The translations under genes were made by a program, and so were the position numbers. A stretch of 64,000 nt of DNA. It comes from Paenibacillus sp. Its GTDB lineage: Bacteria > Bacillota > Bacilli > Paenibacillales > YIM-B00363. The DNA is taken from contig JAPSKX010000001.1 in the NCBI GenBank assembly GCA_031181325.1, forward strand, positions 1-64,000, written 5' to 3'. Each line of letters starts with the position of its first letter. Position 1 is the first letter of the stretch. A model generated the notes under the pieces. That model saw only the letters and a program-made list of their open reading frames with translations. It had not been told where the DNA came from and made no database searches. This document shows, piece after piece, positions 18,057 to 61,992 of the stretch.

Positions 18057-18363
18057 TTGCCGGCCTTGACTAGTTAAAATGACCCACTTACAATATTATG
18101 ATATAAAATATAAACGGGTCTAAGGGGTTTAGGACGGCTCGGTTGCCGAATATATCGTTCCCGCTGCGCACGTTCCTCAAGGTACGCGCTTTTTTATTTA
18201 TTGGGGGAAAATTTTGACCTTGCGCAGTCGGAAAGTCGGCGCCTATGAAAGCTTCATTCCCTGCGCTTTCGACGCTAATCGAGCGCATGCTCGCAACCTG
18301 CCAAGTTCTCGCCCCGTAATGCTACATATAAATCGGAACCGACGAAGACGAGGGATGCGCTGC

Positions 18364-20748
18364 ATGGATGAGGGTTTACGATTAGATCCCGAAGCCGGAT
18401 ATGGACTGGCGGAACGGAAAGCCGCGCGCTACTTCGCGACTCTATACGAGCAGGCGACAGGGAACAGGTATGTTTCCGATTTGACGGAGGACATACGGCT
18501 GTGGAGACGAAATCATGCCCATCGAGGGCCGTGGCTGTCGTTCGTTTCGCGGGGGAAGCAGAAATCGAAGTCCGGGGACGAATCGAGTTACTTGACTTGG
18601 CTGAACCGAACAGGCAGATTGGATGCGTACTTGCGTCGGAGCATCTCATACATTTACATGAGGGATCTGGGAAGCGCGATGGATTCGCCGGATACGCAGG
18701 CCAAGATTCATCGTACGGCCGCCGACGTCAAGCGCCGCTTGGTTTCTTCCGACAAAGCCAAGCCGGGAGAACAGCCGGAGTTGTTCGGGATCGCGGACTT
18801 GTACCGGTGGGCCCAGAAGGAAGGCGTCGAGACCGCCGTCATCTGGGCGATCGAGAAGCTGAGGAACGTGGCCGCGAATCTGCCCGAGGGCATGAACGCC
18901 GAGCACGCGCAGCGCAAGCTGATTAAGATTATGATCGGCGTGGTGCTGCATGCGAACGAAGCGATGGACGGCGAACGACCGCCGGCGGAACGCGCCCGCC
19001 GCCTCGACGCAGCGATCCGGCTCGGTTACTCCTACGGACTGACGTATCCGTTCATCGACGATCTTCTGGATGCGAAGGTGCTGACCGTTCCTGAGAAGAC
19101 GCAGTATTCCAACGTCATCCGGGAAGCGCTCCGTACGGGCGCCTGGCCGGCTTCGGTCGAGTGGACCGGTACGAACGAGGCGATGCTGCAGTTTATCCAC
19201 GCGGAGCTGCGGGAAGCTTTCGAGACGATCAAGCGGAGTCAGACGAACGAGACGCAGCGTCGCTTTTTCGAGCAGGCCTATGTGTTCTTCCACGCCCAAG
19301 AGTCGGATCGCGCGAAAGAGCTGTCCTACGCGGCGTACACGAACGAAGAACTGTATATTCCTATTATTCTGAAGTCCGCCTACTCCCGCTTGATCGCCAG
19401 ATCCGTCATCGGCGCTCCGCCGGACGAGGGCTTCGAGGAGCGTACCTTCTACTATGGCATCTATAACCAGCTGGCCGACGATTTAGCGGATCTATTCGAG
19501 GATTTGGAAGACGGAGCGGTCACGCCCTACACCTACTATGTTACGCACGCCGATCGACGTCCGGATCTGATCAATCCCTTCGAGCTATATTGGGCAGTCG
19601 TTCGCCATCTGATTCGTCAGGTGTATGGCGCTAATGCGGAGGCCCGCGAGGCGATCCTTAGCCGCGTCTTCAACGGCCTCAAGCGTTACCGGGCGCGAAT
19701 CGGCACGGAGTCGTACGATCGCGTGATGGATCGACTCGCTTCCGGACATCCGGCGTTCCATCGATTCGTCCAGAGGATCGTTCGACAAGCGGACGATGTG
19801 GATTTCCTCGACAAGCTGCTCCGGGACCGACTGATCTTGAATCTAACGAACGAACAGAAGGCGAGAGAGGCTTTCTTCGAAACCGTCCGAGCGGCTCGCG
19901 AGCAGATTAACAGCACCTTGCAAATCGTTAAGACGGGCGGGATGCCGCCGATGAAAGAGACGCTGATCGACGCGGCGAATTACAGCTTGGCCGGCGACGG
20001 GAAACGACTGCGACCCGTATTGACCTTGGTCATGGGCGTGCAAGAGTATGGACTGCGGGAGACGGCGATCGTGCCCCTGTTGCGATCGTTGGAGTATTTG
20101 CATACCGCCTCCCTCGTCTTCGACGACTTGCCGTCGCAGGACAATGCGGCGATCCGAAGAGGTCGCGCAACCCTGCATACGGTCCATGACAGCGCCACGG
20201 CGGAGTTGACCGGCCTCTTCCTGATTCAGAAGGCGATTCAGGATCAAGCGTCGCTGGATCAGTTCGATGCCAAGACCGTGCTCGCTCTGATCCGATATTC
20301 GGCCCGCACGGCGGAGGATTTGTGCATGGGGCAAGCGATGGACTTGAACGCGAAGGGCAAAGCGATGACGCTGGAGCAATTGAATACCATCTGCTATTAC
20401 AAAACCGGAGTCGCCTTCGAGGCCGCCTTAGTGATGCCGGCCATTCTCGCGCAGGCGGACGAACGGGAAATCTCGGCGTTGAAAACCTTCGCTTATCATG
20501 CGGGCATCGCCTTTCAGATTCGGGACGATCTGCTTGACGGCGAAGGCGACGAGCGTACGCTCGGCAAGCCGGTCGGGCAAGACGTCGAGAACAACGCCTC
20601 AACGTTCGTAACCGTATTAGGAGCGGAAGGCGCGAAGAAGGAGATGTGGCAGCACTACTGTCTCGCGCTGGAGGCGTTGAACGGGCTGCCGCGCCGCAAT
20701 GCGTTCTTGCCGCAATTATTGGATTACATCATGTACCGGGATCGATAA
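18364..20748 (+). CDS. Two-module class I isoprenoid synthase (C-terminal polyprenyl diphosphate synthase)
   Basis: About 794 residues from ATG 18364 (ATG 18355 is possible; the frame is open to 18214). The C-terminal ~300 residues are a complete trans-prenyltransferase: GDGKRLRP (~545-551), first Asp-rich motif DDLPSQDN with RRGR (~587-601), KTG (~680) and second Asp-rich motif FQIRDDLLDGEGD (~717-729). These bind isopentenyl and allylic diphosphates with Mg2+. The N-terminal ~490 residues are helical and carry two more Asp-rich stretches in family-like settings, YPFIDDLLD (~228-236) and NQLADDLADLFED (~368-380), but no clear first-motif or KRLRP equivalent. Normal enzymes of this family are ~300 residues, so this is a fusion. 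The N-module may be a regulatory or terpene-synthase-like partner. Alanine five residues before the first motif suggests products longer than farnesyl; that is inference. Confidence 0.85.
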   Translation: MDEGLRLDPEAGYGLAERKAARYFATLYEQATGNRYVSDLTEDIRLWRRNHAHRGPWLSFVSRGKQKSKSGDESSYLTWLNRTGRLDAYLRRSISYIYMRDLGSAMDSPDTQAKIHRTAADVKRRLVSSDKAKPGEQPELFGIADLYRWAQKEGVETAVIWAIEKLRNVAANLPEGMNAEHAQRKLIKIMIGVVLHANEAMDGERPPAERARRLDAAIRLGYSYGLTYPFIDDLLDAKVLTVPEKTQYSNVIREALRTGAWPASVEWTGTNEAMLQFIHAELREAFETIKRSQTNETQRRFFEQAYVFFHAQESDRAKELSYAAYTNEELYIPIILKSAYSRLIARSVIGAPPDEGFEERTFYYGIYNQLADDLADLFEDLEDGAVTPYTYYVTHADRRPDLINPFELYWAVVRHLIRQVYGANAEAREAILSRVFNGLKRYRARIGTESYDRVMDRLASGHPAFHRFVQRIVRQADDVDFLDKLLRDRLILNLTNEQKAREAFFETVRAAREQINSTLQIVKTGGMPPMKETLIDAANYSLAGDGKRLRPVLTLVMGVQEYGLRETAIVPLLRSLEYLHTASLVFDDLPSQDNAAIRRGRATLHTVHDSATAELTGLFLIQKAIQDQASLDQFDAKTVLALIRYSARTAEDLCMGQAMDLNAKGKAMTLEQLNTICYYKTGVAFEAALVMPAILAQADEREISALKTFAYHAGIAFQIRDDLLDGEGDERTLGKPVGQDVENNASTFVTVLGAEGAKKEMWQHYCLALEALNGLPRRNAFLPQLLDYIMYRDR

Positions 20749-20754
20749 GCATAT

Positions 20755-20793
20755 AAGAAGGCCGCGCCCGATTCGGGGCGCGGCCTTCTTGTG
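20755..20793. terminator. Bidirectional terminator between isoprenoid synthase and SLH protein genes
   Basis: AAGGCCGCGCCC and GGGCGCGGCCTT arms around a short loop. It serves both convergent genes although the T-runs are short. Confidence 0.85.
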
Positions 20794-20795
20794 CT

Positions 20796-23700
20796 TTACC
20801 GATTAATGAGGTCTGCGGCTTGCAGCAGGCGGCGTACGAGCACTGCCGTCTCCGCGCGAGTCAAGCTCGCGGCGACGTCGAGTCGGTCGCCCCGGCCGTT
20901 GATCAGACCAAGCTCGACGGCCGCCGCGACGTTCGCCCGCGCCCATCCGGCAACCTCGCCGCCGTCGGCGAAAGCGGACAACGCGCGGTCCGCTTCCGCG
21001 TCGAGTACCGTCGACTTCAGCTTCGCGATCGCCGACGCGCGGGACAATACGACCGCGGCTTCCTGACGGCTGATGCGTTGCTTCGGACGGAACGCGCCCT
21101 CTTCGTAGCCGTCGATCAAGCCGTAATCGACGGCGGCCTGTACGGCTCCGGCATACCAGTCGGACGCGTCGACATCCGCGAAGGCGTCCGCGTACGGCGC
21201 GCCTTGGATGCCGAGGCCGCGCGTCACGATCGCGGCGAACTCCGCTCGCGTAACCGACGCGTCGGGACGGAACTCCGTCGCCGATACGCCTTCGACGATC
21301 AAGCGGGAGGCCATGTCGTTCACTTCGGCGTTCGCCCAATGTCCCGCGACGTCAACCATCTCGCTAGGGTTATAGATGACGGAATAGGTGCTGTTCGTCA
21401 AGCTGTTCATGACCGCGTAGGCGACTCCGTTCTGCCGGATAACGACGGTCGGCACATGGAACAGCTCGCCGCCTTGCGTCAGCACGACGCCCGTCGTGAT
21501 GTCCGCCGAATCGATGCCTTCCGGCAGCGCGATCATCCGTTCGACGTAGCTGTTGAATCGGTTCGCCTGCACGACTTGCGCTCCGTAGGTAGCGGTAATT
21601 TCGAAGTCGACCGGATGCACGATGGAACGGTACCCTTCGCGCTCCGCCGCGGCTTGCACCTGCGCCGCTTTCTCCCCGGATGCCTCGATGATTTGAATCT
21701 GGATCGTAATGTCTTCAAGCTTCGCATCCAGGCCGATTTGCGCGGAGATGCTGTCGATGTCGAGTTGCGCCGCCGGCAGCGTGTACGCGGCGCGATCGGT
21801 GACGATGCGGATTTCCGCGGCATTCGTTTCCATCGCTTTCACTAGGCTTCCGGTCAGCAGACCGACGACGACTTGGCTGTTCCCGGAGATCGGGATCGTC
21901 AGCAGCTTATTGTTTTCCCGCGCCAGCTTGTCAATGATCTTCCGGCTGTCCAACACGACCTTCGTGACCGTCCGACCGTCGATCGTGTCTTGTTCCGCCG
22001 CGGCCAATCGTTCTTGCTCCACGCCGTCGACGATGACCTTCACGCCGGGAGGCGTAGTCCCGGTTACGCCTGTCGAACCTGTGGTGCTTGGTTGGTTCGG
22101 CGACTCCGTTGGGCTTTCCGGGCTCTCGGGCGGGTTCTCCGGGCTTCCCGGGTTCTCCGGCGTCACCGGCGGATTCTCCGGTTCCTCCGGGTTCTCCGGC
22201 GTCACCGGCGGATTCCCCGGCTCCTCCGGGTTTTCCGGGTTCTCCGGCGTCACCGGCGGGTTCTCGGGGTTCCCCGGCGTCACCGGCGGATCGGTCGGCG
22301 TCAGCGGCGCGATGACCGTTACGTTGGCCTTCGCTTGATGGCTCCCGTATACGGCAGTGATCACGGCTTCTCCGCTTGCGTTAGCGTTGACCAAGCCCGT
22401 GTCGGGGCTCACCGAGGCGATCGCCGGTTTATCGGACGAGAACGTAACGCCCGAGAGGAGCGGCTGCTTGCTGTCGTCCGAATATACGGCCGTTACGACG
22501 GTCTGATGCGTCTCGCCGACGGACAGGGAATAACTCGCGCTGTCAAGCTCCAGCCGGGATACGGTCGGAGCGCTCGGCGCTTGGTAGCTGTAGTATGCCG
22601 TATACGACTTGTTGCCGAAAATAGCTGCAGCGCCCAGTTCACTGCTGCTAAGCAGCGTCGTTCCGCCGTCGCTGCTCCAACCGAGGAACGTATATCCCGG
22701 ATTCGGCGTTACCGTCGGCACCGAAGCGGGGGAGCCGCCTGCCGCGACCGTCTCGCTGGCGGCGCCGGCGAAGGTGCCGCCTATCCCGGCACTATAGGTT
22801 ACCGTGAACGTTGCGGAAGCCGGCAACCAGACGGCATACAAGGTGACGCTCCGCTTTAAAGCGATCGTATCGCCCGGAGCGTATGCAGTTCCCGACCCGT
22901 CCGATTCCGTGTTCCAGCCGCCGAAGATCTCTCCCGACTTCGTCAGAGCGCTTTGTCCGAGGACCGTAGCGACCTCGCCAGGCTTATATCCTTTGTCGTC
23001 CGTCGGAGCGGCACCGCTGCCGCCGTTCCCGTCGTACGTCACGGCCGCCATCAATCGGACGACGTTAAGACGTTCAAAGTTTACAGAGTATTGATACCCA
23101 TATTTGTCCGCAGCTACATCGAACAGCATGCCGCCCGAGCCCGGCGTCGCCTCGACGGTCGACCAGTCGTCGGAGCTTTGTCCATATTTCAGCTTTCTCA
23201 CGGAGCCGGATATGAGATCCGCCGCTAGCACATTATCGTACGGATCGACGTCGAGGCCGAACGCGATGAACGGAGCCTGTCCGGCCGTCGGCGTTACGCT
23301 CGTCCAACTGCCGTCTTTCGCTCCAAGTTTGAAGAGGTTTGCCGCCGAAAGGCTGTCGAATGACGGGATATCGGTGACGAACACATTCCCTTCGCCGTCC
23401 ACCGCGATATCGAAAGGGTTTTCCAATGGGGATGCGAGTCCTGTAATGTCGCTCCATTCCGTCGAGCCGTTGGTCAATTTCCAAATCTTCGGCGCCGGCG
23501 TCGTGCTGTCGTCGGGGTCCGAGAAGACGCTGTCGACGGCGTAGACGTTGCCCTGCGAATCCGTCGCGATGCCCAGCACGGCATGCATTCCCGCGCCTTC
23601 GGCAATATCGTCCGGCGTGTAGGTGCCAGGGGTCGCGCCGGGGGGGAATTTCAAAATTCTGGCCGTGTTCCCCACCCAGGTGGAATCGGGACGGCTGAAA

Positions 23701-24149
23701 CCGGGAATGGGCGTATATTTGCTATTGTCGGCGACGTATACGTTTCCGGATGGATCGACGGCGATGCCTGCGGGATAATGTAGGTCGGCATCGTAAATCG
23801 TATCGGTCCGCTGTCCGTCGTTCGATATTTTCTCCACCTTGCCGCTAGGTTCGGGCGAAGTGAGATGGTACGAAAACTTGGTCACGTATACGTTGTCGTC
23901 GGCGTCCATGTCCAGCATAAAAGGAATGTATATTCCTCCGATCGGTGATAAGGGAGGCGTGTAATCCTTCCATGTCAGCGCCCCTTCGTAACCCGGCGAC
24001 ACCTCGTCGCGCGGGACGTAATCGGACGGTTCCGCGTAAGCCGTGCCGCCGCCGGCGGCGAACGGCGTCAGCGAGGCAAGGAGCATTGCAGCGCTCAACA
24101 GCGCGGATAATACGTTTCTTTTCGTCGTCCTGCTTGTCATTCTCGGCAT
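20796..24149 (-). CDS. SLH-domain surface protein with NHL propeller, InlB-type repeats and Big2 domain
   Basis: A 1117-residue exported protein. In order: a signal peptide (residues ~1-40, ending TAYA), an NHL-type beta-propeller (~60-370, repeats such as GIAVDPSGNVYVADN), two InlB/Flg_new-type repeats ending in GWNT and LGWSSDG (~366-528), a Big2 Ig-like domain (~530-613), and a Pro/Glu-rich PENP-repeat linker (~613-690). An uncharacterised region follows, then three SLH domains (~930-1117: HWANAEVNDMASRLIVEG, DWYAGAVQAAVDYGLIDGY and a third). SLH domains anchor proteins to pyruvylated cell-wall polymer, so this sits on the cell surface. The start at 24149 is supported by GAGGAGAGAA just upstream; the longer frame to 24230 lacks a site. 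Ligand unknown. Confidence 0.9.
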   Translation of the reverse strand: MPRMTSRTTKRNVLSALLSAAMLLASLTPFAAGGGTAYAEPSDYVPRDEVSPGYEGALTWKDYTPPLSPIGGIYIPFMLDMDADDNVYVTKFSYHLTSPEPSGKVEKISNDGQRTDTIYDADLHYPAGIAVDPSGNVYVADNSKYTPIPGFSRPDSTWVGNTARILKFPPGATPGTYTPDDIAEGAGMHAVLGIATDSQGNVYAVDSVFSDPDDSTTPAPKIWKLTNGSTEWSDITGLASPLENPFDIAVDGEGNVFVTDIPSFDSLSAANLFKLGAKDGSWTSVTPTAGQAPFIAFGLDVDPYDNVLAADLISGSVRKLKYGQSSDDWSTVEATPGSGGMLFDVAADKYGYQYSVNFERLNVVRLMAAVTYDGNGGSGAAPTDDKGYKPGEVATVLGQSALTKSGEIFGGWNTESDGSGTAYAPGDTIALKRSVTLYAVWLPASATFTVTYSAGIGGTFAGAASETVAAGGSPASVPTVTPNPGYTFLGWSSDGGTTLLSSSELGAAAIFGNKSYTAYYSYQAPSAPTVSRLELDSASYSLSVGETHQTVVTAVYSDDSKQPLLSGVTFSSDKPAIASVSPDTGLVNANASGEAVITAVYGSHQAKANVTVIAPLTPTDPPVTPGNPENPPVTPENPENPEEPGNPPVTPENPEEPENPPVTPENPGSPENPPESPESPTESPNQPSTTGSTGVTGTTPPGVKVIVDGVEQERLAAAEQDTIDGRTVTKVVLDSRKIIDKLARENNKLLTIPISGNSQVVVGLLTGSLVKAMETNAAEIRIVTDRAAYTLPAAQLDIDSISAQIGLDAKLEDITIQIQIIEASGEKAAQVQAAAEREGYRSIVHPVDFEITATYGAQVVQANRFNSYVERMIALPEGIDSADITTGVVLTQGGELFHVPTVVIRQNGVAYAVMNSLTNSTYSVIYNPSEMVDVAGHWANAEVNDMASRLIVEGVSATEFRPDASVTRAEFAAIVTRGLGIQGAPYADAFADVDASDWYAGAVQAAVDYGLIDGYEEGAFRPKQRISRQEAAVVLSRASAIAKLKSTVLDAEADRALSAFADGGEVAGWARANVAAAVELGLINGRGDRLDVAASLTRAETAVLVRRLLQAADLINR

Positions 24150-24509
24150 GCGGATCTTCTCTCCTCGGGCGTGAGTTCGAACGTCTCGTTCTTTCGCTTC
24201 TGTCGAAACTCGGAAGCTTCGTTTCCTCAAGAATGCATAAGAATGGAAGAACTTTCAACAATAATTCGGGAGATTATTTTATAATCCGACACAATTCGAC
24301 TTCGTTCGATCGAAGCTTCGACTCGATTTTCGACATTCCTGACATTATACGCCAGGACGCTGAACAAAGACTGAACACTCGCGGAATCGACGAGAGCATG
24401 GTCGATCTCCGGACGGAGGCTGCTGCGATGCGGAAAGCATTGATCGCTGACGCGAACGACGGCGATATGATATGATGCAGGAACCGAGAATACAGTTGGG
24501 GGCGTTCAT
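24150..24509. other. Intergenic region between divergent SLH protein and sensor kinase genes
   Basis: No gene seen. The region is AT-rich near 24230-24300. It holds two overlapping perfect palindromes, TTCGATCGAA (24305-24314) and TCGAAGCTTCGA (24310-24321), and a TATAAT-like element on the minus strand near 24346-24351, which could be the SLH gene promoter. The palindromes are candidate operator or hairpin sequences. Confidence 0.5.
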
Positions 24510-46603: not shown

Positions 46604-48535
46604 TTGAAGGGGATTTTTCGTTTTCTCGTATTCGTCGTCGTCTTTTCGCTAACGGCGAGCACGGCGCCGCTCGCCTCGTCGGCATCCGCCGCATCCAACG
46701 ATTGGACGTGGTCGCTCGTGCAAGGCAAACAGCACGCAGCGCTGCATGCCGTGGTCGAGCTTGCCGGCGGTGTCCGCATCGCCGTCGGGGACAACGCCGC
46801 GGTATTTCGCTCCGACACCGAAGGAACATGGGATCTCGTTCCGTTCCCGGTCGCCGCTCATTTGACGTCCACGGCGTCGAACGGGAACATCGCCGTCGTG
46901 GCCGGCGACGGAGTTATCGCATATACGAAGGACGGACTTACCTGGCGGACGGTCGTGTCGCAGGGGAAGTTTGCGCCGAGACAATTTTTCCCGAGCTCTA
47001 TAACCAACGAACCGTTTGATTTGCGGTCGGAAGCGGTTTTTTGGCACGACGTTGTGTGGGACGGTAGGCAATTTGTTGCCGTCGGCAGAATGGGTCATTA
47101 TTTTGTATCCGCCGCTTCTTCCGACGGATCGAATTGGAAATTGGCGCCGATGCCGACTTCGAAAGTGATGAGCACCATTATGGGGACGGCCCAGCTATCA
47201 AAGTTCAAAGGAAGTTGGATCGCCGTGCATGGGGACGGCATCTTCTATTCGCCGGATGCGACGACCTGGACCTTCCGCGATATAGAGTTGGGCGGATCGA
47301 TTCACGATGTGGCTGAGAACGGAGAGAACATCGTCGCGGTCGGATGGGATGGCCGCGCAGGGACGGGGCGACCGATAAGCGGAACCCTCTTTTCTTCGTC
47401 GGACGGGGTAACGTGGGAGCGACAATCGAAGCTCCGGGGTTTGTCCTCCGTCAACGGCGTCACGTGGGACGGCGCACAATTTATCGCTGTTGGCCATTAC
47501 GGGACGATCCTGCTGTCGACGGACGGAAGCACGTGGGAAAATAAGACCCCGTTCAACGGATCCGTTAATGAGAACCCGCTTTTTTATGTTCAGTACAAGG
47601 GGCTTCGAAGCAATATCAACGCGATCATGAAATCCGGCGGCTCCTATATTGCCGTCGGCGAGGTAGGCACGATCCGCACCGCGGCAGGTCTGGATGAAAC
47701 GTGGAAGCTGGAGGCGGCCGGCACGATGGGCGACCTGTACGGTATCGAGCATGTAAACGGAACGTATTTGGTTGCTGGGAACGGAACGCTAAGCGTCTCC
47801 ACGGATCTGCAGTCGTGGAGTGCGGTCGATAGTGACACAATCGCGGACGGCAACGACCTGTACGAATTGTCGGGCACCGCCGGAACGGCTCTCATGACGG
47901 GGTATTGGAAAGGCGATGGAATGTTGGAACGTGTCGCATATGCATTCGCCGACGGACAGTTGACGAACGTTCAGGGCATTCCCTTGGACGATATCGACGG
48001 CTCCGCAGCCATCAGCCGATCGTTGCGGTTGTTCGGCGGCGGGAAAGGGTACATCAGTTACGACGCCGGCAAGACGTGGGCGCCGTTGCCGGGCGTGCAG
48101 GCGGTTCCGACTGCGGTTAGCGCTACCCAACGATGGATCGGCTATTCGGGAGACACGAACTACGTTTCCGCCGACGGCATCGCATGGAAACCAACGAAGA
48201 GCACCGTCGGCGCAATCGAAAAAGCCATATGGGACGGCAACCGGTTCGTCGGCATTTACGGGGGGTCTCTATACGTATCGTACGACGGGATAACATGGAC
48301 GCCTTCAGTGGAGGGTGTCGAAGATGCTCCGCAATTCGGGGCGCTGGCCGTGAATCCGCAAGGCGTCGTTGCCGCTGTTGGCCGAAAAGGGATTTATTTG
48401 AATGAAGACCGAAAAAAATGGACAAAAATGTCCGTACCGGTAAAGGCGGATCTTCGCGATGTCCTTTGGGACGGTCGGCAATTCGTCGCAGTGGGAGAAG
48501 GCGGCGTCGTTATCGCCGGGAAGCCCCGCGAATAA
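46604..48535 (+). CDS. Secreted beta-propeller (BNR/YCF48-like) protein
   Basis: A 643-residue exported protein: signal peptide (~1-30, ending ASA), then repeated ~45-residue blades with the pattern WDGxQFVAVGxxG...SxDGxTW (for example VVWDGRQFVAVGRMG, VTWDGAQFIAVGHYG, DVLWDGRQFVAVGEGG). This is the Asp-box/BNR-like propeller common in secreted Paenibacillus proteins; no catalytic motif is evident and no wall anchor is seen. The TTG start at 46604 follows GGAGGG. A terminator follows. It probably binds an extracellular polymer or protein; role unknown. Confidence 0.8.
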   Translation: MKGIFRFLVFVVVFSLTASTAPLASSASAASNDWTWSLVQGKQHAALHAVVELAGGVRIAVGDNAAVFRSDTEGTWDLVPFPVAAHLTSTASNGNIAVVAGDGVIAYTKDGLTWRTVVSQGKFAPRQFFPSSITNEPFDLRSEAVFWHDVVWDGRQFVAVGRMGHYFVSAASSDGSNWKLAPMPTSKVMSTIMGTAQLSKFKGSWIAVHGDGIFYSPDATTWTFRDIELGGSIHDVAENGENIVAVGWDGRAGTGRPISGTLFSSSDGVTWERQSKLRGLSSVNGVTWDGAQFIAVGHYGTILLSTDGSTWENKTPFNGSVNENPLFYVQYKGLRSNINAIMKSGGSYIAVGEVGTIRTAAGLDETWKLEAAGTMGDLYGIEHVNGTYLVAGNGTLSVSTDLQSWSAVDSDTIADGNDLYELSGTAGTALMTGYWKGDGMLERVAYAFADGQLTNVQGIPLDDIDGSAAISRSLRLFGGGKGYISYDAGKTWAPLPGVQAVPTAVSATQRWIGYSGDTNYVSADGIAWKPTKSTVGAIEKAIWDGNRFVGIYGGSLYVSYDGITWTPSVEGVEDAPQFGALAVNPQGVVAAVGRKGIYLNEDRKKWTKMSVPVKADLRDVLWDGRQFVAVGEGGVVIAGKPRE

Positions 48536-56220: not shown

Positions 56221-59200
56221 ATGTTGGCAAATCACACGCGGAGGCTGCTTGCCTTCTTGGTCGTCTCGATCGTATTCGGGTTCGGACTTATGGCGGCTCC
56301 GAGCAGTACGGCGTTCGCGTTGAAGGAGCGGGCGCCCGTCGCGCCCGTCGAACAGAAATCTTATGCCGGCGTCCTCAATTCGCAATGGATGGAATATGCG
56401 CTTGTGGATAACCCCTATGCCGACGAGCATGTAACGAATACCGACTATTATACGATCACCAGTACGGAAGACCCGGACTTCTCCGGCGGCGTCACGCCGG
56501 TGCTCGTCGATTACCGGTATTTCCCCGAGCAGGCGCCCTATAACGGGTCCCATAAGCAAAATAAAGGGAAAATTCAGGTTTTCTATCGGGCGTTCCTTAA
56601 GCTCCCTTCTTCCGTCAAATTCAAGGAAGGCATGACCTACACCCTCTCCATCAACACGAAGGTCGCCAATGCCGGACCGTTCGACTTTACGTACGACCTG
56701 AACAAGCCGAATCTTGTCATCCATTCCAACCAAGTCGGGTACTTGTCGGAAGGGCCGAAGGTCGCCTACCTGTCCCACTGGACCGGACATGGAAGCATCG
56801 ACTTCAGCGGATACAAGCAGTTCCACGTGTTGGATGCGGACACCGGGAGCAAGGTGTATACCGGGGACATCACCCTCCATATCGAGGATGATCGGTGGTC
56901 GCAGAGCGATATTTTCGCGATGGACTTCAGTTCGCTAAAGGCCGAGGGGAATTACCGCCTCTATGTCCCGGGCGTCGGCACATCCTATCCGTTCGCCGTC
57001 GGCAGCCGGATTTACAAGGATAACATCGCGTATACCATCACGCGCGCCTTGTTCCATCAACGCGACGGCAAGCACGGGCTTGATAATCCCGCCTTTACCC
57101 ATTGGAACCGTCCGCCCGCGCATGAGGACGATGGAATCGATCAAGCTTTGTACATCGATAACAACTACGATCTGACGAAGGCGAGAGTCGACCTAATCGG
57201 CGGTCACATGGATGCCGGAGATCGCGGCAAATATCCGTACAATTCGGCATACGTCGGGATCGATATGCTGCTCGGCGCCAAGTATTATCCGGAGGAGATC
57301 GAGGCGTTGGGAGAATCGTTGGAGTTCCCGGAGTCGGGCAACGGCATCCCCGATTTCCTCGACGAGCTGGTCTATGAGCTCGATTGGTTGACCAAAGCGA
57401 TCATGAATACTTCTACCGACGGGATGCTGGCGAATTACCTGAGACCGCAGTCTCACGACCCCGAAGTCGGCACCTACGAGGCCGGTCTGCCGCTGGACGG
57501 CGCCAAGAACCGGATGTTCTACAACCGGACGCAAGGACCGAACAAGGCCGAGACCTTGTTCGCCGCAGGCGTGCTGGCGCAAGCCTATAATACGCCGATC
57601 ATGAAGAAATACATCGATCCCGAGAAGCTGGAGGGGTACCTTACGGCTGCGCTTCGAGCTTACAACGGTTTTAAGCTGTACGAGAACAAGCCCGACTCTA
57701 AGAACGGGACCTATTACGATCAGACGCGCGAAGGAACCCCCCATACGTGGTCGAACGAGATGTTATTGGCTGCCAGCGCTCTATTGGTCGCTACGGGAGA
57801 TGAGGAAGAATTCGAACCGTGGATCGAGCGCGAGATGGCGGAGGACATGACGGACTACACCTCCATCAAGCATTGGGAATGGGTGCTGGACCGGGCCTGG
57901 ATCGGCGTCTTCGTCTCTATGTACGAGAATCCGTATCTTTCGCAAGAACTTCGGGATTGGGCTCGAGGCGGAATTCTGAACTATGCGGAGTCGGAGATGA
58001 ATCACGAAACGCCGTTCGGCGCTTCCACGCAAGACGAAGGATTCCCGGATCGGATCGGATGGCGGTTCACGAGCTCGACCTTGATGCCGCTTGTCGTAGG
58101 CTACAAGGTAACAGAGGATCCGGCTAAGAAGGAGGCTTACCTGGAGCGCATCCGGAAGACTTGGGATTATACCTTAGGCACCAATCCGGTAAGCCGCTCG
58201 TTTATTACGGGACTCGGGGACCCGCAGCGGTCGCCGAGATGGTTCGTCCACGAGATCAGTCAGTATCAGTGGGTTCAGCATGTTCTGGGAGATCCGGCAA
58301 ACCCCGGGTGGGTCGAACCGCCGCCGGGACTGCCGAATTCGGACCTTCAGAGCGCCCCGTATCCGTACTGGTTCGACGATGCGGCGAACGCAGTGGCGAA
58401 GACGAAGGCATATCCGACCTATAACGATCACGCCGTCATGTACCGTTACACGGACTCTTGGAACACGCAGAATGAATTTTCGGTCAACATCTTGTCGGCG
58501 AACGCGACGTCCATGCTGCCGTTAATCCCGGTAGAGACTCGTACGCTCACGGTGAATTCCGTCGATGGACAGGTGCTCCCGGCGGGAGGGACGTACAGCA
58601 AGGGGATGAAGCTCACCCTTACGGCGAAGGGGAACGTCGGCCATAAATTCTCCCACTGGAGCGGGGATGTCGAAAGCGAGGATAACTCCATCGACATTAC
58701 GATGGACCGGGATATGAACGTCGTCGCCAATTATATCGATGTTCCGGTCCATTCCGTCAAGGTGACGGCGGAGAACGGCACCGTTACGCTGGATCACGCG
58801 GACGGACGATATAGCGAGAACGATGTCGCTACCCTCACCGCGGAAGCGATGTACGGATTTAAGTTTTCGCGTTGGAGCGGCGACGCGACGGGGACCGAAC
58901 CAACCATAGAAGTGGAGATGGATAGGCCCAAGAACATCGTCGCGGAGTTCGTACCGCTTAAACCGTTTACGCTATCGACCGATTCGGATGAGAGTATGGG
59001 TACGGTCAAGGTCAATCCCGCGAAGGCGAACGGGATCTATCTGGAAGACGACGAAATCATTCTCACCGCCGTCAAGAAGTTCGGCTACCGATTCACCGAA
59101 TGGACCGGCGATTATTCCGGCACCGCCAATCCCGCGATCGTGAAGATGGACGGGGAAAAGGAGATCACAGCCAATTTCCGGGCTGTGCCGATCTACAAGG

Positions 59201-61992
59201 TAACCGCGCATACGACGGAAGGCGGCACCGTAGCGACATCCGTCGATCAGCCTGCGAACGTACAAGACGGGATGATCGAAGAAGGAACGCTCGTGAGTCT
59301 GACGGCAACCGCCGAGCCGGGCTATCTGTTTACCGGTTGGAGCGGCGATGCGGTCAGCAGCGCGAACCCGCTGAAAATCAAGCTAAGCGGCGACCGGACG
59401 GTCACGGCGAACTTCCAGCTCGCCAACGGGCTGATGAGCGTGGACGTCACGCCGACCGGAACGCCGGGCAGCTCGGACATCGCCGACGGGCTCTATACGC
59501 TGGCCACCAGCGGCAATAAATTCGGCGTGGCGCCCGACAGCTTCCGGTATTTGTTCCGCGCGGGACAGAAGGGAGACGCGGTGTTTACGGCCAAGCTCGA
59601 CTCCTTCTCCAGCGACAATCCCGAGGGAGCGGCAGCCGGCATCCAGGTGCGTAAGAATTTAGCCGACGATTCCTCGTACGCGGCGATCATGGTGAAGAAC
59701 GGCAAGCTCGTCGTACAGATTCGCAAAGGCGGGATCTACTACGATGCGCATCCGAAAGAACCGGCCGAGCAGCTTGACGTGAACGGGCCGATATGGCTGC
59801 AGATCAAACGGACGATCAACCGGGACATCGAGCTGTCCTGGTCGAATGACGGCGAGACCTGGAATAGTTACCGGAAGGAAACGTTCTGGGGATGGGACGG
59901 CGCCAATACGGAACTGACGATGGGACTGTTTGCTTCCGCCGGTCAGACGAAAGAAGCGGGCGAGACTCGAACGGCTTCCGCCCGGTTCAGCGAGGTCCAG
60001 TGGCCGGGCATGTATTATCTTACTGTCGAGGCCGGCGACGGAGGGTCGGTGACGACCGCATCCGGACTGTATAATGCGGGTGCGGACGTGAAGCTGACCG
60101 CCGTACGGGATGCGGGCTATTCGTTCGCAGGTTGGGATAAGGATCTGACGGGCAAGGCGAATCCCAACACCATTCGAATGGACGGGAACAAGACGGTAAG
60201 GGCGAACTTCAGTCTGATGCCGAAAACCCCTCTTCTCACGGTAGGCGAACTGAGCGGCGGCAGGATCGAGTTCGATCCCCCCGGCGGCGCATATGAGCCG
60301 GATCAGACGGTCCAAGTGAAGGCGGTACCGGATGCCGGGTACAACTTCGTCAAGTGGCAAGGGGATTTGATCGGAACCGAAAACCCCGCCGCCATCCAAA
60401 TGGATGGCCACAAGACGATATCGGCGCAATTCGTACCCTATAAGAACATCGATATTCTGACGCAACATGCCGGGAGCACGGACGAGGACGAGAACGGCAT
60501 CTCGGTCAAAGCTTCCGGAACCAGCCTGTGGGGAGAAAACGACAGCTTCCGTTACGTGTTTAAAGAAAATCTGACCGGAGACGTCGACATGATCGCGAAG
60601 GTAACCGACTTCGACGGGACGGCCGGCAATGCGCTCGCCGGCATCATGGTACGGCAAGGGACTAGCGTGACCAACGACTATCAAGGGATCTTCGTGACGA
60701 ACGAGAAGAAACTGCGCAGTCAGTTCAGAATCAACGGGAAATGGACGGTTACCGAGCATACGGGCACCGAAGCCGTCGAGCTTCCGATCTGGTTGAAGGT
60801 GGAGAAGCGCGGCAAACAGTTGACTACGTATTCCAAGACGGAAGGCGGCGATTGGATTCGGAGAGGCTCGCAGACGATTGCTTCCTTCGAGGGTCCGTTC
60901 ACCGCGGGCTTAGCCGTAACGGCAGGACAAGACGGGAAATTCGCAACGGCTGCGTTCGACGACGTCGAATGGCCCGGAGCGCTCTATTACACGTTAAGTA
61001 CCGAGGCCAGCGGCGGCACCATATCGACGGACTTGCCCGGCCCGACGTATCCGGCGGGAAGCTCGGTTACGGTGACGGCCGCCGCCTACCAGGGCTACGT
61101 ATTCACCGGGTGGAGCAACGGGTTGAGCGGTCTGACCAACCCGGCCGTCGTCACGATGGATGCCGACAAGACGATTCAAGCGAATTTCAGACCGGAGACG
61201 GACCGTTATACGCTGACGGTCCATTCCGATCATGGCGATGTTACGCTGGATTCCGTGCAGGATGTCTACGCTCCCGGTACGCCGGTCGTCGTTCGCGTCG
61301 AACCGCATGACGGGTACGCGTTCATCGGCTGGAGCGACGATTTGACCGGCGTGACCAACCCGGCTACGGTCATCATGGACGGCGACAAGACGATCACGGC
61401 GAACTTTATTCGCGCGAACTTCGGGAGCGGCGATATCGGGACCGGTCACGCGGGCGCGACGGAGATCGGAGAGACGTCCGTCACGGTGAGAGGCTCCGGA
61501 ACGAATATCTGGGGAATGAGCGATATGTTCAGATATGTATCCCAGAACGGACTGACCGGAGACCATACGATCGCTGCTCGAATCGATCGGGTCACCCACC
61601 AGGGCGTTACCCCGCACAAGGATGTTAAGGTCGGCGTTATGGTCCGTCAAAGCGCGGATGCGGACAGCGCCCATCAAGGCATATTCCTCGACGGGAACCG
61701 CGCGATTACGCCGATCAAGCGAGATTACGCCGGCGCTTGGTCGCAGAGGAACGCGGATCCTACCGCCCCGGTAGAAGGACCCGTCTGGCTGAAAGTCGAG
61801 AAGGTCGGCAACGTCGTGAAAACCTACTCGTCGCTCGACGGCGCGGAATGGATCGAGCGCAGTACGCATCAGCTGAATTTGACCGAGCCCTATACCATGG
61901 GATTGGTCGTATCCGCGGCGATCGACGGTCAGTATGTAGAAGCAGTCTTCAGCGATATAACGTGGCCGGTGCCGCCCACGGGGACAAACTAG
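56221..61992 (+). CDS. Giant secreted GH9 glycanase with eight InlB-type repeats and three beta-sandwich modules
   Basis: A 1923-residue secreted enzyme. A signal peptide (~1-34, ending AFA) and a ~125-residue N-region precede a CelD_N Ig-like domain (~160-260, NLVIHSNQVGYLSEGPKVAY) and a GH9 barrel (~265-760). The catalytic base Asp is in GGHMDAGD (~326) and the acid Glu in NEFSVNILSANATSM (~752). Then come four InlB-type repeats (~773-1065, each with a GYxFxxWSGD-type core), a DUF1349-like lectin sandwich (~1070-1260), two repeats, a second sandwich (~1410-1585), two repeats and a third sandwich (~1736-1915). There is no SLH, sortase or dockerin signal. GH9 enzymes cut beta-1,4-glucans; the repeats probably act as spacers and binding modules. 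AAGAAGGAGAG precedes the ATG. Confidence 0.9.
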   Translation: MLANHTRRLLAFLVVSIVFGFGLMAAPSSTAFALKERAPVAPVEQKSYAGVLNSQWMEYALVDNPYADEHVTNTDYYTITSTEDPDFSGGVTPVLVDYRYFPEQAPYNGSHKQNKGKIQVFYRAFLKLPSSVKFKEGMTYTLSINTKVANAGPFDFTYDLNKPNLVIHSNQVGYLSEGPKVAYLSHWTGHGSIDFSGYKQFHVLDADTGSKVYTGDITLHIEDDRWSQSDIFAMDFSSLKAEGNYRLYVPGVGTSYPFAVGSRIYKDNIAYTITRALFHQRDGKHGLDNPAFTHWNRPPAHEDDGIDQALYIDNNYDLTKARVDLIGGHMDAGDRGKYPYNSAYVGIDMLLGAKYYPEEIEALGESLEFPESGNGIPDFLDELVYELDWLTKAIMNTSTDGMLANYLRPQSHDPEVGTYEAGLPLDGAKNRMFYNRTQGPNKAETLFAAGVLAQAYNTPIMKKYIDPEKLEGYLTAALRAYNGFKLYENKPDSKNGTYYDQTREGTPHTWSNEMLLAASALLVATGDEEEFEPWIEREMAEDMTDYTSIKHWEWVLDRAWIGVFVSMYENPYLSQELRDWARGGILNYAESEMNHETPFGASTQDEGFPDRIGWRFTSSTLMPLVVGYKVTEDPAKKEAYLERIRKTWDYTLGTNPVSRSFITGLGDPQRSPRWFVHEISQYQWVQHVLGDPANPGWVEPPPGLPNSDLQSAPYPYWFDDAANAVAKTKAYPTYNDHAVMYRYTDSWNTQNEFSVNILSANATSMLPLIPVETRTLTVNSVDGQVLPAGGTYSKGMKLTLTAKGNVGHKFSHWSGDVESEDNSIDITMDRDMNVVANYIDVPVHSVKVTAENGTVTLDHADGRYSENDVATLTAEAMYGFKFSRWSGDATGTEPTIEVEMDRPKNIVAEFVPLKPFTLSTDSDESMGTVKVNPAKANGIYLEDDEIILTAVKKFGYRFTEWTGDYSGTANPAIVKMDGEKEITANFRAVPIYKVTAHTTEGGTVATSVDQPANVQDGMIEEGTLVSLTATAEPGYLFTGWSGDAVSSANPLKIKLSGDRTVTANFQLANGLMSVDVTPTGTPGSSDIADGLYTLATSGNKFGVAPDSFRYLFRAGQKGDAVFTAKLDSFSSDNPEGAAAGIQVRKNLADDSSYAAIMVKNGKLVVQIRKGGIYYDAHPKEPAEQLDVNGPIWLQIKRTINRDIELSWSNDGETWNSYRKETFWGWDGANTELTMGLFASAGQTKEAGETRTASARFSEVQWPGMYYLTVEAGDGGSVTTASGLYNAGADVKLTAVRDAGYSFAGWDKDLTGKANPNTIRMDGNKTVRANFSLMPKTPLLTVGELSGGRIEFDPPGGAYEPDQTVQVKAVPDAGYNFVKWQGDLIGTENPAAIQMDGHKTISAQFVPYKNIDILTQHAGSTDEDENGISVKASGTSLWGENDSFRYVFKENLTGDVDMIAKVTDFDGTAGNALAGIMVRQGTSVTNDYQGIFVTNEKKLRSQFRINGKWTVTEHTGTEAVELPIWLKVEKRGKQLTTYSKTEGGDWIRRGSQTIASFEGPFTAGLAVTAGQDGKFATAAFDDVEWPGALYYTLSTEASGGTISTDLPGPTYPAGSSVTVTAAAYQGYVFTGWSNGLSGLTNPAVVTMDADKTIQANFRPETDRYTLTVHSDHGDVTLDSVQDVYAPGTPVVVRVEPHDGYAFIGWSDDLTGVTNPATVIMDGDKTITANFIRANFGSGDIGTGHAGATEIGETSVTVRGSGTNIWGMSDMFRYVSQNGLTGDHTIAARIDRVTHQGVTPHKDVKVGVMVRQSADADSAHQGIFLDGNRAITPIKRDYAGAWSQRNADPTAPVEGPVWLKVEKVGNVVKTYSSLDGAEWIERSTHQLNLTEPYTMGLVVSAAIDGQYVEAVFSDITWPVPPTGTN

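Follow-up and report, generated by a model that had tools for sequence, protein, structure and literature searches.

The window that we analysed, a 64,000-nucleotide stretch of a Paenibacillus sp. genome, carries on its forward strand a 794-residue open reading frame (18364-20748) which we annotate as a fused two-domain isoprenoid synthase. Its reading frame and start were confirmed by the sequence and by comparison with homologues: the ATG at 18364 agrees with the homologues' starts and is preceded by a ribosome-binding site, GAGGG, at 18350-18354, with GAGG at the same position in most homologues. Upstream of the gene there is a 360-bp gap, and downstream a terminator-like hairpin with a perfect 15-bp stem (20755-20790, forward strand; a shorter version was flagged separately) separates it from a convergent gene. 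We conclude that the fusion gene is real, and that it probably has its own promoter and terminator. The convergent gene (20799-24230, reverse strand) encodes three SLH domains together with Big_2, Listeria-Bacteroides and NHL/beta-propeller repeats. Elsewhere on the forward strand of the window are genes for a GH9 cellulase-type protein that contains eight divergent InlB B-repeats and ends in a DUF1349 match (56221-61989) and for a secreted-looking protein of 643 residues without a Pfam match (46604-48532).

The C-terminal half of the protein (residues 499-794; 19858-20745, forward strand, as are all features of the gene given below) is, as judged by profile, motifs and model, a complete trans-isoprenyl diphosphate synthase. 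Residues 533-760 match PF00348 at 4e-50 and 170.8 bits, against a curated cut-off of 27. Superposed on E. coli FPP synthase (1rqi), the model of residues 499-794 gives a Z-score of 37.6 and an rmsd of 1.9 over 289 residues. The initial annotation had described a complete trans-prenyltransferase with both Asp-rich motifs, and in this it was correct: among 120 distinct homologues, with identities down to 44%, from which all our conservation counts are taken, the GKRLRP, DDLPSQD, RRG, QxxD, KT and DDLLD motifs are invariant or nearly so. Within the IPP-site signature KRLRP (547-551; 20002-20016), K547 and R550 are invariant and R548 and P551 are present in 119 of the homologues, and the first Asp-rich motif, DDLPSQD (587-593; 20122-20142), is separated by 134 residues from the second, DDLLD (721-725; 20524-20538). 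From what is established on chain-length control in these enzymes, a small residue at the fifth position before the first motif points to a product longer than C15. That position is occupied here by A582 (20107-20109), an alanine in 119/120 homologues, so we infer a product longer than C15; of the host's paralogues, the FPP-synthase-like one has Tyr at this position and the heptaprenyl-type one Ala. Residues 616-618 (20209-20217) read TGL instead of the AGD usual in trans-prenyltransferases, a change that is fixed in the family (G617 in 119/120 and L618 in 116/120 homologues).

The N-terminal half (residues 1-482; 18364-19809) is unannotated. We found no match to it in Pfam, NCBIfam or PDB sequences and no credible match in PHROGs; the PDB sequence search with the single-protein N-terminal half gave nothing up to an E-value of 10, and its profile matches were weak and unrelated. 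No curated family was matched in these searches, and hence none that is well studied and of single function. Its AlphaFold2 models are helical and confident, both for residues 1-482 alone (pLDDT 87.9, pTM 0.88) and for the whole chain (pLDDT 86.1, pTM 0.84), in which a continuous helix, 482-518, connects the two halves. All 50 of the 50 PDB matches listed for the N-terminal model were terpene synthases or prenyltransferases, and these structures cover residues 92-445 (18637-19698). The best were the terpene synthases 1hx9 (Z 14.0, rmsd 5.0, 256 residues aligned) and BjKS, 4xlx (Z 13.8, rmsd 4.0, 245/279 residues), and the best prenyltransferase (Z 12.6) ranked about 1.4 Z lower. Foldseek similarly listed isoprenoid synthases throughout, with modest E-values (best 4e-3). 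A Z-score of about 14 is, by itself, within reach of unrelated helical models and not decisive, but because every listed match belongs to one superfamily and the corresponding motifs are conserved, the N-terminal half very likely has a class I isoprenoid-synthase fold, as predicted from model and sequence, and not an unrelated one.

The motifs in question follow the order that they have in a prenyltransferase, at similar spacing. The initial annotation had pointed to the DDLLD and DDLADLFED segments of the N-terminal half, whose Asp residues proved to be invariant, but it had seen no recognisable first Asp-rich motif; in fact DDLLD (232-236; 19057-19071) stands where the first motif belongs, and 140 residues separate it from the second, DDLADLFED (372-380; 19477-19503), which a profile alignment places on the prenyltransferase second motif. 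Between the two lie Q312xxD315 (19297-19308) and K337 (19372-19374), which in order and similar spacing match Q657xxD660 and K680 of the C-terminal half. D232, D233, D236, Q312, D315, K337, D372, D373, D376 and D380 are invariant in 120/120 homologues. The IPP-binding signatures GKRxRP and RRG, both present in the C-terminal half, are absent from the N-terminal sequence, and this absence suggests a terpene-synthase-type reaction.

Might the N-terminal half, then, act as a prenyltransferase? The PF00348 profile does not match the N-terminal half in the window, and those of its relatives score no higher than 18.5 bits against the cut-off of 27, with weak matches in five of 14 members (best E 0.0012). 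When an N-terminal profile that included the unfused relatives described below was aligned with a prenyltransferase profile built from 30 prenyltransferases of Bacillota genomes and those of the fusion family itself, the two were collinear over residues 204-391, motif 1 falling on motif 1 and motif 2 on motif 2; the score of this alignment was 42.9, whereas reversing the profile gave 22.7 and none of 60 block shuffles exceeded 32.5. The broader set was needed, since with the profile of the C-terminal half alone just one motif was matched. By the collinear alignment, trans-prenyltransferases are the closest relatives in sequence; this, the weak PF00348 matches and the prenyltransferase-like QxxD and K337, both retained, would fit an enzyme that, in the manner of ComQ or squalene synthase, passes the product of the C-terminal half to an acceptor other than IPP, be it a peptide, an aromatic ring, a polyol or a second prenyl chain. 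We regard such an enzyme as unlikely, because terpene cyclases are the best structural matches of the N-terminal half and because no acceptor gene of small-peptide or UbiA type is conserved nearby among the clustered ORFs, those of at least 80 residues. The common fold and motif order would also suit two prenyltransferases working in series, both halves elongating the chain, but an elongating N-terminal half would be expected to bind IPP and it has neither GKRxRP nor RRG, which makes this arrangement very improbable. The missing IPP signatures and the ranking of the fold matches favour a terpene-synthase-type reaction, as far as sequence and model can indicate one.

Relatives of the fusion protein are encoded at 365 loci of the genome collection, mostly in Paenibacillaceae, and each of the best 80 of these 365 can be aligned along almost its entire length. 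Together with the invariant Asp residues of the N-terminal half, this puts the fusion far beyond chance. The relatives occur mainly in Paenibacillus and also in Cohnella, Brevibacillus, Neobacillus and Bacillus. In 399 sampled genomes of Bacilli, all 44 full-length matches to the N-terminal half lie in open frames of 776-871 residues, which fits a fusion in every case. The proposal that two isoprenoid-synthase modules are joined in one conserved bacterial polypeptide is thereby upheld, with a predicted class I fold in the N-terminal half and PF00348 in the C-terminal one. The plasmid collection held no full-length match, only matches to the prenyltransferase half.

A profile search across Bacillota recovered an unfused relative of the N-terminal half (E 2e-9) and a second one in the same genus, which belongs to another class of the phylum. 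Both (L148:6-1193, reverse strand, and L155:6302-7558, forward strand) are about 400 residues long, have no Pfam match and come without a prenyltransferase. They have DNFLD or DNYLD at the first motif and DDLQDVSED or DDLQDVKED at the second, and they keep D232, D236 and K337. In L155, phosphopantetheinyl-transferase-like and NRPS-like ORFs are found 4-7 kb downstream of the unfused gene.

These relatives bear on the question of whether the N-terminal half is a catalyst at all. Foldseek's top match to it was 9kp1_B, one of the chains in the HepST heterodimer from B. subtilis, and the pTM of the whole-chain model, which contains no long disordered linker, suggests that the halves pack against each other; both observations could be accommodated if the half were a regulatory subunit without catalytic activity, which like a covalently attached HepS or HexA fixes the chain length of the C-terminal product. 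For such a subunit, however, there would be no need to keep K337, Q312 and seven Asp residues of the metal type invariant in 120 homologues, and most of these residues are retained in the unfused relatives, which are without the prenyltransferase. We therefore consider a purely regulatory role rather improbable.

The surroundings of the gene offered no partner. Within 6 kb, no neighbour was conserved in most of 100 loci, and thus none of the kind of the ComX, ComP and ComA genes that would accompany a ComQ-type peptide prenyltransferase, among the ORFs that were clustered, those of at least 80 residues and so above the size of a ComX-like peptide. With no neighbouring gene widely conserved, the fusion gene appears to act alone. 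Squalene-hopene cyclase was considered as a partner that might track with the fusion, and was rejected after it was not found in several fusion-bearing genomes.

A further question is whether the N-terminal half is simply an ordinary tetraprenyl-beta-curcumene synthase of the DUF2600 family (PF10776), the class IB terpene synthases that include YtpB and BalTS (5yo8), to which its motifs are alike in spacing and form. The DUF2600 motifs are DYLDNLxD and DY(F,L,W)IDxxED (PMC7839719); FIDDLLD and DDLADLFED of the N-terminal half are similar but not identical to them, the Tyr of the second DUF2600 motif being replaced by Asp. Out of 169,100 ungapped pairings of 21 residues, the best set motif 2 on motif 2 (372/261) and the second best motif 1 on motif 1 (216/84), with the third (409/310) collinear. 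This resemblance in sequence is supportive only, since five block shuffles out of 300 scored at least as high as the best window and hhalign of the two gave a score of 20.4, which is not significant. BalTS was not among the 50 structural matches listed, an absence that does not by itself argue against a likeness. Besides the motif-level similarity, the comparable ECF control of B. subtilis ytpB would speak for an ordinary DUF2600 enzyme. Against it, no N-terminal half that was scanned matched PF10776 at E-values up to 1 (up to 5 where tried), and DUF2600 is represented by a gene of its own in this and in related genomes. We consider this identity extremely unlikely; in its sequence, below Pfam detection, and in its fusion to a prenyltransferase the N-terminal half differs from DUF2600. 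The host's own DUF2600 gene is present as two partial pieces on two contigs (G000:C73:3634-4164 and G000:C320:6357-6836), the latter with an internal TAG; the split is probably an assembly break and possibly reflects a broken gene.

How is the gene controlled? Comparison of upstream regions across the family identified a putative ECF-sigma-type promoter at 18292-18319, consisting of CGCAACC (18292-18298) and CGTAA (18315-18319); relative to the consensus, GTAACC-N15-CGTAT, each box has one mismatch and the spacer is one base longer. Of 94 dissimilar regions upstream of homologues, 77 (L204, L206-L210, L213, L216, L219 and L225 among them) contain the pattern G[TC]AAC-N16/17-CGTA, compared with a mean of 0.46 in shuffled sequences and 0 for the reverse strand. 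The strict motif was counted 22 times across 12 genomes; ten of these occurrences precede the fusion gene, one each in ten genomes, and those remaining lie mostly within ORFs. A reversed control pattern gave nine matches in all. Several more distant homologues, including those of Bacillus and Neobacillus, have no such motif upstream. Promoters of Bacillus ECF sigma factors have the form of the GTAACC-N15-CGTAT type, and we predict from sequence that this is an ECF-type promoter, nearly private to the fusion gene in Paenibacillus genomes, whose form points to control by envelope stress. Matches to the motif in the genomes gave no clear wider regulon apart from a kinase-like ORF, preceded by CGCAACC-N15-CGTAT in both L226 and L229, two related genomes; this ORF may be the regulon's second member. 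In B. subtilis, ytpAB is under the control of the ECF factor sigma-M, and YtpB starts sesquarterpene synthesis (PMC8144471, PMC11708026). Given the ECF-type promoter and this analogy, a role of the product in the envelope or membrane is plausible.

What does the protein make? We think it fairly probable, on the combined reading of sequence and models, that it is a bifunctional prenyltransferase/terpene synthase which evolved independently in bacteria, and which would make a prenyl chain and then cyclise or rearrange it. Its activity may be an undescribed one, as the initial annotation proposed. The C-terminal domain would condense IPP with an allylic diphosphate to form a linear prenyl diphosphate, probably of C20 or longer. 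This product would be handed over to the N-terminal class I domain, which may grip its diphosphate through Mg2+ held by the two Asp-rich motifs and ionise it, giving a cyclic or rearranged terpene. An ECF sigma factor would turn the gene on, and the product would probably serve the cell envelope or membrane. Points that speak against this reading are the modest fold scores with only about 1.4 Z between terpene-synthase and prenyltransferase matches, the weakness of the DUF2600 similarity, the lack of a conserved neighbour that would indicate a pathway, and the TGL that stands for AGD in the C-terminal half.

Each half of the protein has counterparts among known enzymes. The C-terminal half corresponds in full to the type II FPP/GGPP synthases of PF00348, whereas the N-terminal half shares with them the fold, Q312xxD315, K337 and a QxxDDxxD pattern but is without the IPP signatures and extends about 100 residues further at its N-terminus. 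As in the HepST and HexAB heterodimers, two class I helical units are associated, one of them with full motifs; unlike in those systems, the units are fused and the extra unit retains metal motifs. The closest parallel in architecture is found in the prenyltransferase-terpene synthase chimeras of fungi. In the fungal PaFS the cyclase is N-terminal and the prenyltransferase C-terminal (PMC8190136), so the order of an unknown module followed by a prenyltransferase, to which the initial annotation had attached weight, is not unusual: both proteins place a class I fold before a trans-prenyltransferase in one chain of similar total length. They differ in that PaFS has a flexible linker of about 70 residues (PMC8190136), whereas our model has the continuous helix, and in that the present protein is bacterial, with an N-terminal half that has no detectable sequence similarity to any PDB chain. 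Chimeric terpene synthases were described in 2021 as restricted to fungi (PMC8307374), and we found no bacterial fusion of this type in the literature searched, which leaves out most subscription papers. It is quite possible, and we propose it tentatively, that bacteria evolved such chimeras independently of fungi by way of an unrecognised class I family, and that they use them, under a dedicated ECF sigma factor, to make a terpenoid of C20 or longer in response to envelope stress in Paenibacillaceae. If this were true, assembly-line terpene synthesis would have arisen a second time, independently, in a protein shared by hundreds of species, a new family of terpene synthases would have been concealed behind a recognised polyprenyl-synthetase domain, and there would be a lead to a Paenibacillus terpenoid with a stress-linked promoter. 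In a different group of organisms, and with an N-terminal family that is unnamed in the libraries searched, the protein follows the same logic as the fungal chimeras.
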